Shown here in pieces: positions 856 through 11,465 of a stretch of DNA of 64,000 bases (its first letter is position 1; each line of letters begins with the position of its first letter). The notes beneath the pieces were generated by a model. That model did not search any database. It saw only the letters and a program-made list of their open reading frames with translations, and was not told the DNA's origin. The stretch is from an uncultured SAR116 cluster alpha proteobacterium (GTDB taxonomy: Bacteria > Pseudomonadota > Alphaproteobacteria > Puniceispirillales > Marisalimonadaceae): contig CABZSR010000001.1 of assembly GCA_902528415.1 (NCBI GenBank), positions 62,001 to 126,000 on the forward strand, in the 5' to 3' direction. Both the position numbers and the translations under genes were made by a program.

Positions 856-2463
856 TTAATGAGTTCTTCCAAAAACTCCTGGTTTCACACCATAATCAAC
901 AGCCAAACCGTAACTAGGATCATCATCAGCATCTACGACTAACTGACCAGCCTTCCTTAATAAGGAATGACAGTCTGTTGATAGATGTCTCAATTGTAAC
1001 TGTTTCTTTCTTTTTTTATATTTAACAGCAAGATCCTCTATTGCTTGTAACGCTGACTGATCTACGACACGACTATTGATAAAATCAACAACTACGATAT
1101 CAGTATCACTTTCTAAATTGAATATTTCTGAAAAGCCTTGGACAGATCCAAAAAACAAAGGACCCTCTATATAATAAATTGTGTTACCATTATCATCTGT
1201 TGCAACATTGCCTGTTATACGAATTGCATTATTCCAAGCGTAGGCAAGAGCCGAAACAATAACTCCACATATAACAGCAATTGCCAAATCGTAGATAACA
1301 GTAATGACCGTTACAATTATCATAACGACCACATCTGTTCTTGGAATACGTTTAATAACCAAAATACTCTGCCAAGCAAAAGTACCAATGACTACCATAA
1401 ACATAACACCAACTAACGCTGCTAAGGGAATTTGCTCGATAAGAGAAGATCCAATTACAATGAATAAGAGTAAAAACAAAGATGCCGTAATACCAGATAT
1501 TCTTGTACGGCCACCAGATTTTACATTAATCATTGATTGACCAATCATTGCACAACCACCCATACCACTAAAAAACCCAGTTACCATATTAGCAATACCT
1601 TGAGCGACGCACTCCTGAGATGCCCCTCCAATTTTTCCAGTAATATCACCCACTAAATTGAGCGTTAACAAACTCTCAATCAAACCAATTATTGCTAAAA
1701 TCAAGGCATATGGAAGTATTATTAAAAGAGTGTCGGTATTAAGAGGAACTGATGGAATATGAAATGTTGGTAACCCTCCTTTTATGGAAGCAAGATCACC
1801 TACACGAGGAACATCTATATCTAGTGATATAACAAGCACAGCTACGAAGATTATGCCTGCTAAAGGGGCTGGAATAATAGTAGTTATTTTAGGCATCACC
1901 CATATTACAATCATGGTAATAATTACAAGCAAAAGCATAATTAGCAAAGTTTGTTCTTCCATCCATTGTTTGTTTCCAGATAAATCTGTTATTTGAAATT
2001 GGGACATTTGAGCTAAAAAAATAACGATGGCTAAACCGTTCACAAAACCAAGCATAACAGGATAAGGAACTAGTCTAATAAATTTCCCTAATCTTAAAAA
2101 AGCAGCAGTAATTTGAAAGATTCCCATTAATACAACCGTGGCAAATAAATACTCAACACCGTGTAAAGAAACTAAAGCAACCATAACAACTGCTAATGCA
2201 CCTGTTGCACCGGAAATCATACCAGGCCTCCCTCCAATTAAAGCCGTAATTAATCCAACTATAAAAGCCGCGTATAGACCTACTAAAGGATGAACTCCAG
2301 CGACAAATGAAAAAGACACAGCCTCAGGTACTAATGCTAGAGCAACTGTTAAGCCTGCTAAAATTTCTGTTTTAAACTTTAATATTGATGAAAATTTTAG
2401 ATTCGAAAATTGTAATTCATTATCTGATATTTTTTGGGATAATTCTTTAAAGATTTTTTGTAT
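856..2463 (-). CDS. SulP family anion transporter (SLC26-like) with STAS domain; non-canonical start inferred
   Basis: This is an inner-membrane anion carrier, probably for bicarbonate or sulfate; the substrate cannot be told from sequence. The first ATG, GTG or TTG in frame is a GTG at 2319. Conserved SulP sequence continues upstream of it (KTEILAGLTVALALVPEAV, the first membrane helix), so starting there would remove TM1. The frame stays open to a TAA just upstream of 2466. The only start-like codons there are ATT (2466-2464) and ATA (2463-2461), behind TTAGGAG. I place the start at ATA, seven bases from the GGAG, giving 535 residues. The C-terminal ~100 residues form a STAS domain. Motifs such as GGRPGMISGATGALAVVM are clear. 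The exact start is uncertain; family membership is not. Confidence 0.85.
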   Translation of the reverse strand: MQKIFKELSQKISDNELQFSNLKFSSILKFKTEILAGLTVALALVPEAVSFSFVAGVHPLVGLYAAFIVGLITALIGGRPGMISGATGALAVVMVALVSLHGVEYLFATVVLMGIFQITAAFLRLGKFIRLVPYPVMLGFVNGLAIVIFLAQMSQFQITDLSGNKQWMEEQTLLIMLLLVIITMIVIWVMPKITTIIPAPLAGIIFVAVLVISLDIDVPRVGDLASIKGGLPTFHIPSVPLNTDTLLIILPYALILAIIGLIESLLTLNLVGDITGKIGGASQECVAQGIANMVTGFFSGMGGCAMIGQSMINVKSGGRTRISGITASLFLLLFIVIGSSLIEQIPLAALVGVMFMVVIGTFAWQSILVIKRIPRTDVVVMIIVTVITVIYDLAIAVICGVIVSALAYAWNNAIRITGNVATDDNGNTIYYIEGPLFFGSVQGFSEIFNLESDTDIVVVDFINSRVVDQSALQAIEDLAVKYKKRKKQLQLRHLSTDCHSLLRKAGQLVVDADDDPSYGLAVDYGVKPGVFGRTH

Positions 2464-2516
2464 AATGCAACTCCTAATTTATCGGCAAAAAACAAAAAAT
2501 AATATTTATCTAAATA

Positions 2517-8741: not shown

Positions 8742-9482
8742 TTAATCTAATTTATTTGCTACAATCACAAATTCTTTATTTCCACTTTGTCCTAATATAG
8801 GACTTTCTACAACACCTGATAAATACATATTCATATCATGTTGAAGCCAATTTTTAATATCAGCTACAACTTCTTGATGTAGTTCCGGATCTCTAACAAT
8901 ACCACCTTTACCAACGAGACCCTTCCCCACCTCAAACTGGGGTTTAATTAGAGCAGCAAGCCACCCTTTAGTTTTTAATAAACTGAGCCCTGGAGGTAGA
9001 ACTTTTTTTAATGATATAAAAGAAGCGTCACATACTATTGCATCCAATGGATCTTTTATAATTTGATCCGTTAAAAAACGTGCATTAGTTTTTTCTTTAA
9101 CAATAACTCGTTCATTTTGTCTTAATCTCCAATCTAATTGACCATAACCAACATCAACTGCATAAATTTTCTTTGCCCCTCTTGCTAATAAAACATCTGT
9201 AAAACCACCAGTACTTGCTCCAATATCAAGTGCTATTATTAAATCACAATTAAGTTTGAACTCTAAAATAGCTTTTTCTAACTTAATACCTCCTCTTGAC
9301 ACCCAGGGATAAGTTTTACCTTTTATTTCAATTGTTGAATCAGTCTTGACTTGTTGTCCTGCCTTTTCAACACGTTTTTCGTTAATAAATACATTACCTG
9401 ACATAAGAAGAGAATTAGCTTGCTCCCTACTTTTGGCAAGGCCATTTGAAACCATTAGTTTATCTATTCGTTCTTTTGTTAT
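8742..9482 (-). CDS. tlyA: TlyA family rRNA 2'-O-methyltransferase; probable AUA start
   Basis: TlyA proteins combine an N-terminal S4 RNA-binding domain with an FtsJ/RrmJ-like methyltransferase that modifies ribosomal RNA riboses. The SAM site is IALDIGASTGGFTDVLL, followed by VDVGYGQLDW and CDASFISLKKVLP. The first in-frame ATG (9455) cuts into the S4 domain. Upstream codons encode KERIDKL, the conserved first S4 helix, and no ATG, GTG or TTG lies between them and the in-frame dxs stop. An ATA at 9482 stands eight bases after AAGG and would give 246 residues. It is the last gene of the xseB-ispA-dxs-tlyA run, 30 bases after dxs. If the ATA is not used, the protein starts at 9455 with a trimmed S4 domain. 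Confidence 0.88.
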   Translation of the reverse strand: MTKERIDKLMVSNGLAKSREQANSLLMSGNVFINEKRVEKAGQQVKTDSTIEIKGKTYPWVSRGGIKLEKAILEFKLNCDLIIALDIGASTGGFTDVLLARGAKKIYAVDVGYGQLDWRLRQNERVIVKEKTNARFLTDQIIKDPLDAIVCDASFISLKKVLPPGLSLLKTKGWLAALIKPQFEVGKGLVGKGGIVRDPELHQEVVADIKNWLQHDMNMYLSGVVESPILGQSGNKEFVIVANKLD

Positions 9483-9512
9483 TTTAAAAACCTTGAAATA
9501 TTGTTTTGTAAA

Positions 9513-11465
9513 TCACTTTGCTAGAAATTCATTGTTTAAAGGTAAAGTAGTAATCATATCTCGAATAATTTTTAACAATCCTTTTACGTCTAAACCTGCT
9601 TTAGCTAGTTGCTCATTTTGAGAGGCATGATCTTGGAAATGATCCGGCATAGTTAAACATCTAATTTCTTTATCATTTTGATTCAGTATGCCTTTTGAGG
9701 ATAAAAAGTGTAAACAATGTGAACTAAATCCACCAGCAGAACCCTCTTCAATTATTATTAGCTTTCGATGATCATTCCATAATTTTTGAACTAAATCTGT
9801 ATCAATTGGCTTAGCAAATCTAGCGTCTGCAACAGTTATTGAACAATTGTCAGTATTCAAAATATCTGCAACCTTTAACGCAGTTCCTAATCTTGTTCCT
9901 AAAGCAAGAATAGCTATATCTTCTCCTTCTCTCACAATTCGACCTTTACCAATCTCTAAGTTTTTTAAAGATTCAGGAAGTTCTACCCCCTCACCTTCAC
10001 CTCTGGGATATCTACAAAAAATGGGACCATTGCTATAACTTGCTGAAGTAAAAACCATATTGGCTAACTCACTTTCATCACTTGGTGCCATAACAACTAC
10101 ATTTGGCAAACAACAAAGATATGCCAAATCAAAAGATCCAGAATGAGTGGCACCGTCTGCACCAACGAAACCTGATCTATCAAGCATAAATCTCACCGGT
10201 AATTTTTGAATTACTACGTCATGAATAATTTGATCGTAAGCCCTTTGTAAAAAAGTTGAGTAAATAGCAACAAATGGTTTTAAACCCTCTGAAGCCATAC
10301 CTGCAGCAAATGTTACAGCATGTTGTTCAGCAATACCTACATCATAAAATCTATCTTGGAATTTATCTGCAAATTTATTTAACCCAGTTCCTGAAGGCAT
10401 GGCAGCAGTAATAGCTAAAACTTTTTTATCTTTTTCAGCAATTTTACATAAAGTTTCTGAGAAAATATTAGTATACGTTGGAGCATTTGAGGTTGATTTG
10501 ACAGTATCGCCTGTTACAACGTCAAACTGTGATACTGCATGATACTTTTCGTGAGAACCTTTAGAAAAAGGATGGCCTCTTCCCTTTTCAGTTACAACAT
10601 GAAGCAAGATTGGCTTATCTTGAGGACCATTTTTTAAATTTTCTAATATTTTGACCATAGACTTAACATCATGTCCATCAATAGGACCTAAGTAACTCAT
10701 ACCCATTTGACTAAAAATAGTTCCTTCTGAGTTACCAAGAAAATTACGTGCTAAATTTTCTGCTCTTTTTGCGGTTTCTCCAATTTCTTTTGGAAAAAAA
10801 TTAACCATCTGTTTTGCAATTTCACGTACATTATTAAATGGACGACTAGATACAACATTAGACAAATAATTACTTAAAGCACCTACAGCAGGTGCAATAG
10901 ACATATCATTATCGTTCAAAATAACTAACATATTAGTTTTAAGAGCACCTGCATTATTCATAGCCTCATATGCCATTCCAGCACTCATAGCTCCGTCCCC
11001 AATAACGGCTATTACATTATTAGTTTTACCTAATTTATCTCTTGCAACTGCCATACCTAAAGCCGCAGAAATAGATGTTGATGAGTGTCCCGCGCCAAAA
11101 GGGTCGTAAACAGACTCCGTTCTTTTTGTAAATCCAGAAAGACCGTTCAGTTTTCTCAGTGTAGACATTTCATGTCTTCTATTCGTTAAAATTTTATGAG
11201 GATAGGCTTGGTGTCCAACATCCCATATCAATCGATCATAAGGAGTGTCAAAAACATAGTGAATGGCAATAGCAAGTTCAACCACACCCAAGCCAGCTCC
11301 TAAATGGCCACCAGTTTTAGAGACGCTGTCAATCATATCAGATCTTAATTCAGAAGATAAGTTTTCAAGATCTTCTATTTTTAGAAACTTTAAATCATTA
11401 GGATTATTTATCTGATCAAGCAGAGGCGTAGATATGGGCTTTTCGTTTTTATCTTTATTTGCCAT
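9513..11465 (-). CDS. dxs: 1-deoxy-D-xylulose-5-phosphate synthase
   Basis: This TPP-dependent enzyme condenses pyruvate and glyceraldehyde 3-phosphate in the first step of the MEP isoprenoid pathway. It has 650 residues, the normal length. Motifs include GGHLGAGLGVVELAIA with the catalytic His, the TPP-binding GDGAMSAGMAYEAMNNAG, GPIDGHD, and the pyrimidine-domain DVGIAEQHAVTFAAG and DRSGFVGADGATHSG. It lies in a minus-strand cluster with ispA and xseB upstream and tlyA downstream, a common arrangement in proteobacteria. ispH, a later enzyme of the same pathway, is at 50119. Confidence 0.97.
   Translation of the reverse strand: MANKDKNEKPISTPLLDQINNPNDLKFLKIEDLENLSSELRSDMIDSVSKTGGHLGAGLGVVELAIAIHYVFDTPYDRLIWDVGHQAYPHKILTNRRHEMSTLRKLNGLSGFTKRTESVYDPFGAGHSSTSISAALGMAVARDKLGKTNNVIAVIGDGAMSAGMAYEAMNNAGALKTNMLVILNDNDMSIAPAVGALSNYLSNVVSSRPFNNVREIAKQMVNFFPKEIGETAKRAENLARNFLGNSEGTIFSQMGMSYLGPIDGHDVKSMVKILENLKNGPQDKPILLHVVTEKGRGHPFSKGSHEKYHAVSQFDVVTGDTVKSTSNAPTYTNIFSETLCKIAEKDKKVLAITAAMPSGTGLNKFADKFQDRFYDVGIAEQHAVTFAAGMASEGLKPFVAIYSTFLQRAYDQIIHDVVIQKLPVRFMLDRSGFVGADGATHSGSFDLAYLCCLPNVVVMAPSDESELANMVFTSASYSNGPIFCRYPRGEGEGVELPESLKNLEIGKGRIVREGEDIAILALGTRLGTALKVADILNTDNCSITVADARFAKPIDTDLVQKLWNDHRKLIIIEEGSAGGFSSHCLHFLSSKGILNQNDKEIRCLTMPDHFQDHASQNEQLAKAGLDVKGLLKIIRDMITTLPLNNEFLAK

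Follow-up and report, generated by a model that had tools for sequence, protein, structure and literature searches.

Comparative evidence for AUA as the start codon of tlyA in a family of SAR116 Alphaproteobacteria

Background

The closest described systems are bacterial genes that begin at AUA, AUU or AUC (grouped here as AUH). The infC gene, which encodes initiation factor IF3, carries an AUU, AUC or AUA start and is autoregulated by IF3; in Escherichia coli the codon is ATT. According to one source, the chromosomal pcnB gene of E. coli is held low by an inefficient AUU start (PMC4245954, with Binns and Masters 2002 as the cited reference). For Staphylococcus aureus, one report describes AUA starts in ccpN, citZ and infC and an AUU start in cvfC1, with Shine-Dalgarno sequences present and several of the starts conserved in relatives; in poor medium such starts yield roughly 10% of what AUG gives, and IF3 limitation has been proposed for ccpN and cvfC1 (PMC13009471). 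The Streptomyces sigR gene has a GTC start which is repressed by IF3 and is sensitive both to IF3 level and to fidelity mutants (PMC5472188). AUA is a very rare start codon, but its use in bacteria is already in print (PMC13009471, PMC13068326).

The gene considered here is tlyA of an uncultured SAR116 cluster alphaproteobacterium. It shares its putative start codon class with infC, which in this order has the same AUA preceded by a Shine-Dalgarno sequence, but tlyA does not encode IF3, and the autoregulatory loop is one described for infC. A likeness to E. coli pcnB lies in a pcnB/cca-like gene of this lineage that reads as starting at ATT or ATA; this gene occurs in another bacterial class, and it matches the PcnB and CCA-adding models with scores all below their cut-offs. 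Whereas the S. aureus starts were established by ribosome profiling and reporters, those described here are known by comparison only, across a whole family and in other genes. As in sigR, a non-canonical start would lower the output of one protein; the codon and the function differ, and it was in Streptomyces that the mechanism was tested. In the literature covered (titles and abstracts from partial listings, with subscription journals thinly represented), nothing was found on AUA or other AUH starts in tlyA or in this SAR116 gene set, and the family-wide AUA-start set seems new.

The start of tlyA in the window

The window, that is, the whole stretch of DNA analysed, covers 64 kb of a 1.72-Mb draft genome (58 contigs, 73% complete). 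Near named relatives of this genome are alpha proteobacterium SCGC AAA536-K22 and SAR116 isolate AG-430-M22, both of the same genus. The features of the dxs-tlyA junction are as follows.

9513..9515, minus strand: TGA stop of dxs, in frame with tlyA (sequence read)
9491..9494, minus strand: AAGG, Shine-Dalgarno-like, 8 nt 5' of the tlyA AUA (three- or four-base motif 7-10 nt upstream in 45/47 genomes)
9480..9482, minus strand: predicted AUA start codon of tlyA (sequence read, and the same codon across 47 family genomes)
8742..9482, minus strand: tlyA coding sequence as predicted from the AUA, 246 aa, S4 and FtsJ domains (TIGR00478 and Pfam S4 alignments)
9453..9455, minus strand: internal ATG, earliest standard codon after the dxs stop, which we do not take for the start (it would cut the beginning of S4)

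After the dxs TGA the frame continues TTT ACA AAA CAA TAT TTC AAG GTT TTT AAA and then ATA ACA AAA GAA CGA ATA GAT AAA CTA ATG. The last of these codons (9455-9453) is the first ATG, GTG or TTG after the stop, and KERIDKL is already encoded upstream of it. Counted from the AUA, position 1 of the TIGR00478 profile falls at residue 5 and that of Pfam S4 at residue 4. The window protein scores 221.4 bits with TIGR00478 (cut-off 185.8), and PF01479 (S4) and PF01728 (FtsJ) both exceed their cut-offs. The product is predicted to be a TlyA-family rRNA 2'-O-methyltransferase. The 23S-specific model NF049952 gives 171.9, below its cut-off of 250, so that the rRNA target is not settled by the models.

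ATA makes up about 3.7% of codons in conserved frames of the window genome, and ATA, ATT and ATC together 9.5%. An ATA at this place in one genome alone could therefore be a matter of chance, and it is the comparison across genomes that settles the question.

Conservation of the start codon in the family

Searches were run against 40 genus genomes (g1), 58 family genomes (f1) and 136 from the order. Fifty f1 genomes have a tlyA match, and the junction was read in 47 of them (30 g1 loci, G001 and 16 of g2-g4), the partial matches of G008, G027 and G040 falling outside this set. The codon corresponding to the window AUA is ATA in 42 genomes, ATT in two (G001, G042), ATC in two (G043, G044) and GTG in one (G041); it is ATG in none. 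The flanking codons vary, and exchange among ATA, ATT, ATC and GTG at one fixed position is the behaviour of a start codon. Only G019 and G041 depart from the Shine-Dalgarno pattern, the GTG of G041 having no visible motif. In 42 of the 47 genomes there is no in-frame standard start upstream of the codon; one or two are present in G011, G012, G013, G019 and G048. At the G019 junction (L028), the AGG of the Shine-Dalgarno sequence is changed to ATG, four codons before the ATA, and it is possible that the start of this gene has recently moved to a standard codon.

The same comparison bears on the view that translation really begins at the internal ATG and that the S4 domain is simply shortened. 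This codon is the first standard start and is ATG in 28 of the 47 genomes, but it is absent in the other 19; it has no Shine-Dalgarno sequence in the window, its use would clip the beginning of both TIGR00478 and S4, and the KERIDKL stretch upstream of it is conserved as protein. A start at 9455 is accordingly judged very improbable. The two observations from which the earlier note set out, the lack of any ATG, GTG or TTG between the dxs stop and the S4 domain and an ATA 8 nt past AAGG, were borne out on rereading. That note had named orthologues beginning at the equivalent of 9455, with the same short S4 domain, as evidence against its own reading; the comparison does not turn against it, ATG being absent at the AUA position in all 47 genomes and at the 9455 position in 19.

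In 78 of the best 80 named tlyA loci across bacteria, a standard codon (ATG, GTG or TTG) occurs in the stretch from the upstream stop to S4, and the two that lack one are AAA536-K22 and AG-430-M22, both of the window genus; the named outgroups are mostly not AT-rich, and their long open frames would make a standard start easier to find. A standard start precedes S4 in 18 of 19 tlyA loci of families f3 and f4 (L167 was misread by the motif). No tlyA match was obtained in the five f2 genomes (G058-G062, 61-88% complete), and a search of plasmid records with tlyA DNA returned two partial matches with no bearing on the question. Taken together, an AUH or GTG codon at one position in 47 f1 genomes and a standard start in 78 of 80 control loci identify AUA, by comparison, as the tlyA start codon and not an error. 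Among the loci read, this predicted AUA start is confined to f1.

An artefact of sequencing or assembly might be suspected, given that the window genome is a draft and incomplete, and one could also imagine that AUA is read as methionine in this lineage. Both ideas are exceedingly improbable: the AUH/GTG pattern recurs in 47 separate genomes, the named single-cell genome AAA536-K22 included, and AUA alternates with AUU at a conserved isoleucine within tlyA. This residue, the isoleucine of RIDKL, is encoded by ATT in g2-g4 and by ATA in almost every g1 row; AUA still reads as isoleucine, and its reassignment to methionine was rejected on this ground.

A further idea is that ribosomes read through the TGA, which in the window is indeed in frame with tlyA, and so produce TlyA fused to Dxs. 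The tlyA frame is bounded, however, by TAA rather than TGA in 20 of 29 genus rows, with the stop at a varying distance, and several g2-g4 rows contain more than one in-frame stop between dxs and tlyA. The TAA stops, the varying distance and the multiple stops rule this idea out for practical purposes.

AUH starts in other genes

A second gene of the window, sulP, has the same arrangement.

2471..2475, minus strand: AGGAG, Shine-Dalgarno-like, 7 nt 5' of the sulP AUA (sequence read)
2461..2463, minus strand: very probable AUA start codon of sulP (sequence read; among 18 genomes, 16 with ATA and two with ATG)
856..2463, minus strand: sulP-family transporter as predicted from the AUA (PF00916 position 1 at residue 30)

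A GTG at 2319 (residue 49) is the earliest standard codon of this frame and lies inside the PF00916 domain. The gene was found in 18 of the 58 f1 genomes, and in two of these (G012, G013) the ATA is replaced by ATG. An ATG at exactly this codon is strong evidence for a start there, and AUA is very probably the sulP start. A TTG lies upstream in rows L318, L319, L320 and L326, and L323 has an ATG three codons downstream.

How widespread such starts are was estimated from 1.21 Mb of genome G000 and 1.17 Mb of G033, which gave 573 non-shadow reciprocal pairs. Those that scored 120 bits or more and had complete frames numbered 526 and were kept; a pair was flagged when 7 or more aligned residues preceded the first standard start of either member. 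Twenty-nine pairs were flagged; inspection by eye assigned 7 to AUH starts, 1 to a possible AUH start and 21 to ordinary starts, overlaps or broken frames. An earlier scan of 197 pairs had given 18 candidates, among which tlyA alone was judged to have an AUH start. The putative starts read by eye, G000 first and G033 second, are listed below; six genes have AUH in both genomes and tcuA in one only.

tlyA: ATA, ATA
dnaX: ATA, ATA
DUF2062 gene: ATA, ATA
hemD: ATT, ATT
pcnB/cca-like gene: ATT, ATA
DctQ-type permease: ATC, ATC
tcuA: ATG, ATT
A5134 (possible): ATT, ATG

The exchanges of ATT with ATA in the pcnB/cca-like gene and of ATG with ATT in tcuA, like that of ATA with ATG in sulP, fall on one fixed codon, as expected of a start. 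The dnaX frames reach codons 48 and 145 (145 in G033) before any standard codon appears, and dnaX has no clear Shine-Dalgarno sequence. In G033 there is no standard start before codon 169 of hemD or codon 221 of the pcnB/cca-like gene, so that in the latter the whole polymerase head domain lies upstream. In G000 a standard codon follows the AUH by 8 codons in hemD, 9 in the pcnB/cca-like gene and 4 in the DUF2062 gene. The pcnB/cca-like gene occupies L270:3318-4640 (G033:C4) and L189:16803-18155 (G000:C6). TTG appears to be a common start in these genomes: in 54 of 527 G000/G033 pairs, both members have TTG at the first column where they share a standard start.

Comparison thus supports the use of AUA, AUU and AUC starts in several genes of the lineage; infC and sulP are not among the 526 pairs and add to the seven. 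The count of 7 in 526 can be set beside the six fixed non-canonical genes among 2265 described for Listeria (PMC13068326); Fisher's test gives p 0.005 (0.014 with 6 genes), but the methods are mixed, and a rate above that of Listeria is only a hint. Two genes with AUA at a good distance from a Shine-Dalgarno sequence, tlyA and sulP, had earlier been taken as a sign that the lineage may tolerate AUA more than usual. The sulP case holds, with AGGAG 7 nt before a codon that is ATA or ATG across 18 genomes, and the pairs with AUH starts, together with infC, speak for the tolerance; that it is more than usual stands only in relation to published counts.

IF3 and initiator tRNA

In all 51 genomes of the order in which infC was read, an ATA stands at Shine-Dalgarno distance (27 g1, 9 g2-g4, 2 f2, 9 f3 and 4 f4; G082 was left out, and the G027 contig breaks off at the ATA, leaving the upstream sequence unseen). 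Some rows, for example G005 and G103, have a TTG or ATG farther upstream. On this comparison AUA is the infC start codon of the order, and among the loci read only f1 appears to place tlyA on it.

The IF3 protein itself carries a family-specific residue. Position 107 (E. coli count) is phenylalanine in 36 of 36 distinct f1 genomes (41 rows; G082 was dropped, the motif having matched thrS) and tyrosine in all 15 outgroup genomes (f2 2/2, f3 9/9, f4 4/4) and in E. coli. There are family differences at positions 115 and 120 too, but at these the outgroups are variable. Tyr107 and Lys110 of IF3 are reportedly required for ribosome binding, as de Bellis is said to have found in 1992. An IF3 that we take to be from Geobacillus (5me0 chain Y) likewise has phenylalanine at residue 107, and the family change is therefore not decisive as a cause. 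The replacement probably arose once on the tree, and it is found elsewhere too; as a cause of AUA use it is suggestive.

The initiator tRNA gene (77 nt, with A29-U41 in the anticodon stem of the tRNA) is identical in the f1 genomes G000, G001, G005, G043 and G044 and in G061 of f2; that of G056 has two substitutions. The f3 copies read are truncated 3' halves of the gene, and in these the anticodon-stem strand CCTGA is unchanged. The gene read is common to f1 and f2, and seems to be shared with f3. With no change specific to the family, the initiator tRNA was rejected as the cause of the AUA starts. The earlier note had offered altered IF3 or altered initiator tRNA as possible explanations: a change in IF3 that may be causal is indeed seen, and the proposal for the tRNA is not supported. 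The 16S 3' end was sought in the retrieved family sequence and was not found.

Partial copies of the initiator tRNA gene recur in these genomes. Within 15 kb of G005 (G005:C1:72453-87350; L374, L395) there are one whole gene and four partial copies, and further 3' halves lie in L378-L387 and L396-L400. Recurring 3' halves are as expected of attachment sites left by integrating elements.

A possible role in limiting TlyA

What comparison establishes is the position of the codon, its conservation and the occurrence of the same putative start class in infC, sulP, dnaX, hemD, the pcnB/cca-like gene, the DctQ-type permease gene, the DUF2062 gene and, in one genome, tcuA. Beyond this, we consider it quite probable that tlyA starts at the AUA at 9482 as a weak start discriminated against by IF3, of the infC and pcnB kind, and that TlyA is thereby kept scarce. 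The ordinary initiator tRNA (anticodon CAU) would read the AUA, helped by the upstream AAGG, and the internal AUG would go unused as a start. Discrimination by IF3 against the AUU, AUA and AUC class would make initiation weak and TlyA scarce and sensitive to IF3. With the same start in infC, the levels of TlyA and IF3 would be expected to move together. Initiation at AUA, its low efficiency, control by IF3 and selection for low output are the parts of this proposal that we infer, and the AUA start may be a means of holding TlyA output low.

It is possible, if rather unlikely, that the use of AUA is neutral: in an AT-rich family with lax initiation, AUG would decay to AUA or AUU without cost and without any regulation. 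AUH starts occur in genes of unrelated function (hemD, DctQ, DUF2062 and tcuA among the 7 of 526 pairs), sulP and tcuA exchange ATG and AUH between species, and IF3 has its family-specific change, all of which would fit. Against this, 519 of the 526 pairs have no sign of an AUH start, by a rule blind to extensions of fewer than 7 residues. ATG is found at the start codon in none of the 47 tlyA and none of the 51 infC genes, while sulP and tcuA do switch with it; the missing tlyA ATG is weak proof of selection, since the genomes share ancestry and, of their codons ending in A or G, only 16-21% have the G. A Shine-Dalgarno sequence was read in 8 of 9 AUH genes, as if to offset a costly codon; a simple rule finds one in 210 of the 527 ordinary pairs.

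An extension of the preferred reading, a weak and IF3-sensitive tlyA start, is more speculative, and we regard it as doubtful. It would make the AUH start the defining mark of a regulon in which infC, tlyA, dnaX, hemD, the pcnB/cca-like gene, sulP and others answer to IF3, reset by the Tyr107 to Phe change, with TlyA feeding back on the discrimination that limits it. The feedback is suggested by the 16S target of TlyA, which we take to be C1409 in helix 44 and which would lie beside the second IF3 site. That site is placed at h44 1407-1408 of 16S rRNA in a published account (PMC5037330).

Gene callers limited to ATG, GTG and TTG are unable to place AUA, AUU and AUC starts, so that the proteins concerned are annotated as truncated or are missed. 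A family in which comparison alone reveals such starts, among housekeeping genes and beside an AUA-started infC, would offer a natural test of the way in which discrimination between start codons evolves. The same family may also allow a test of whether this discrimination serves regulation beyond IF3 itself.
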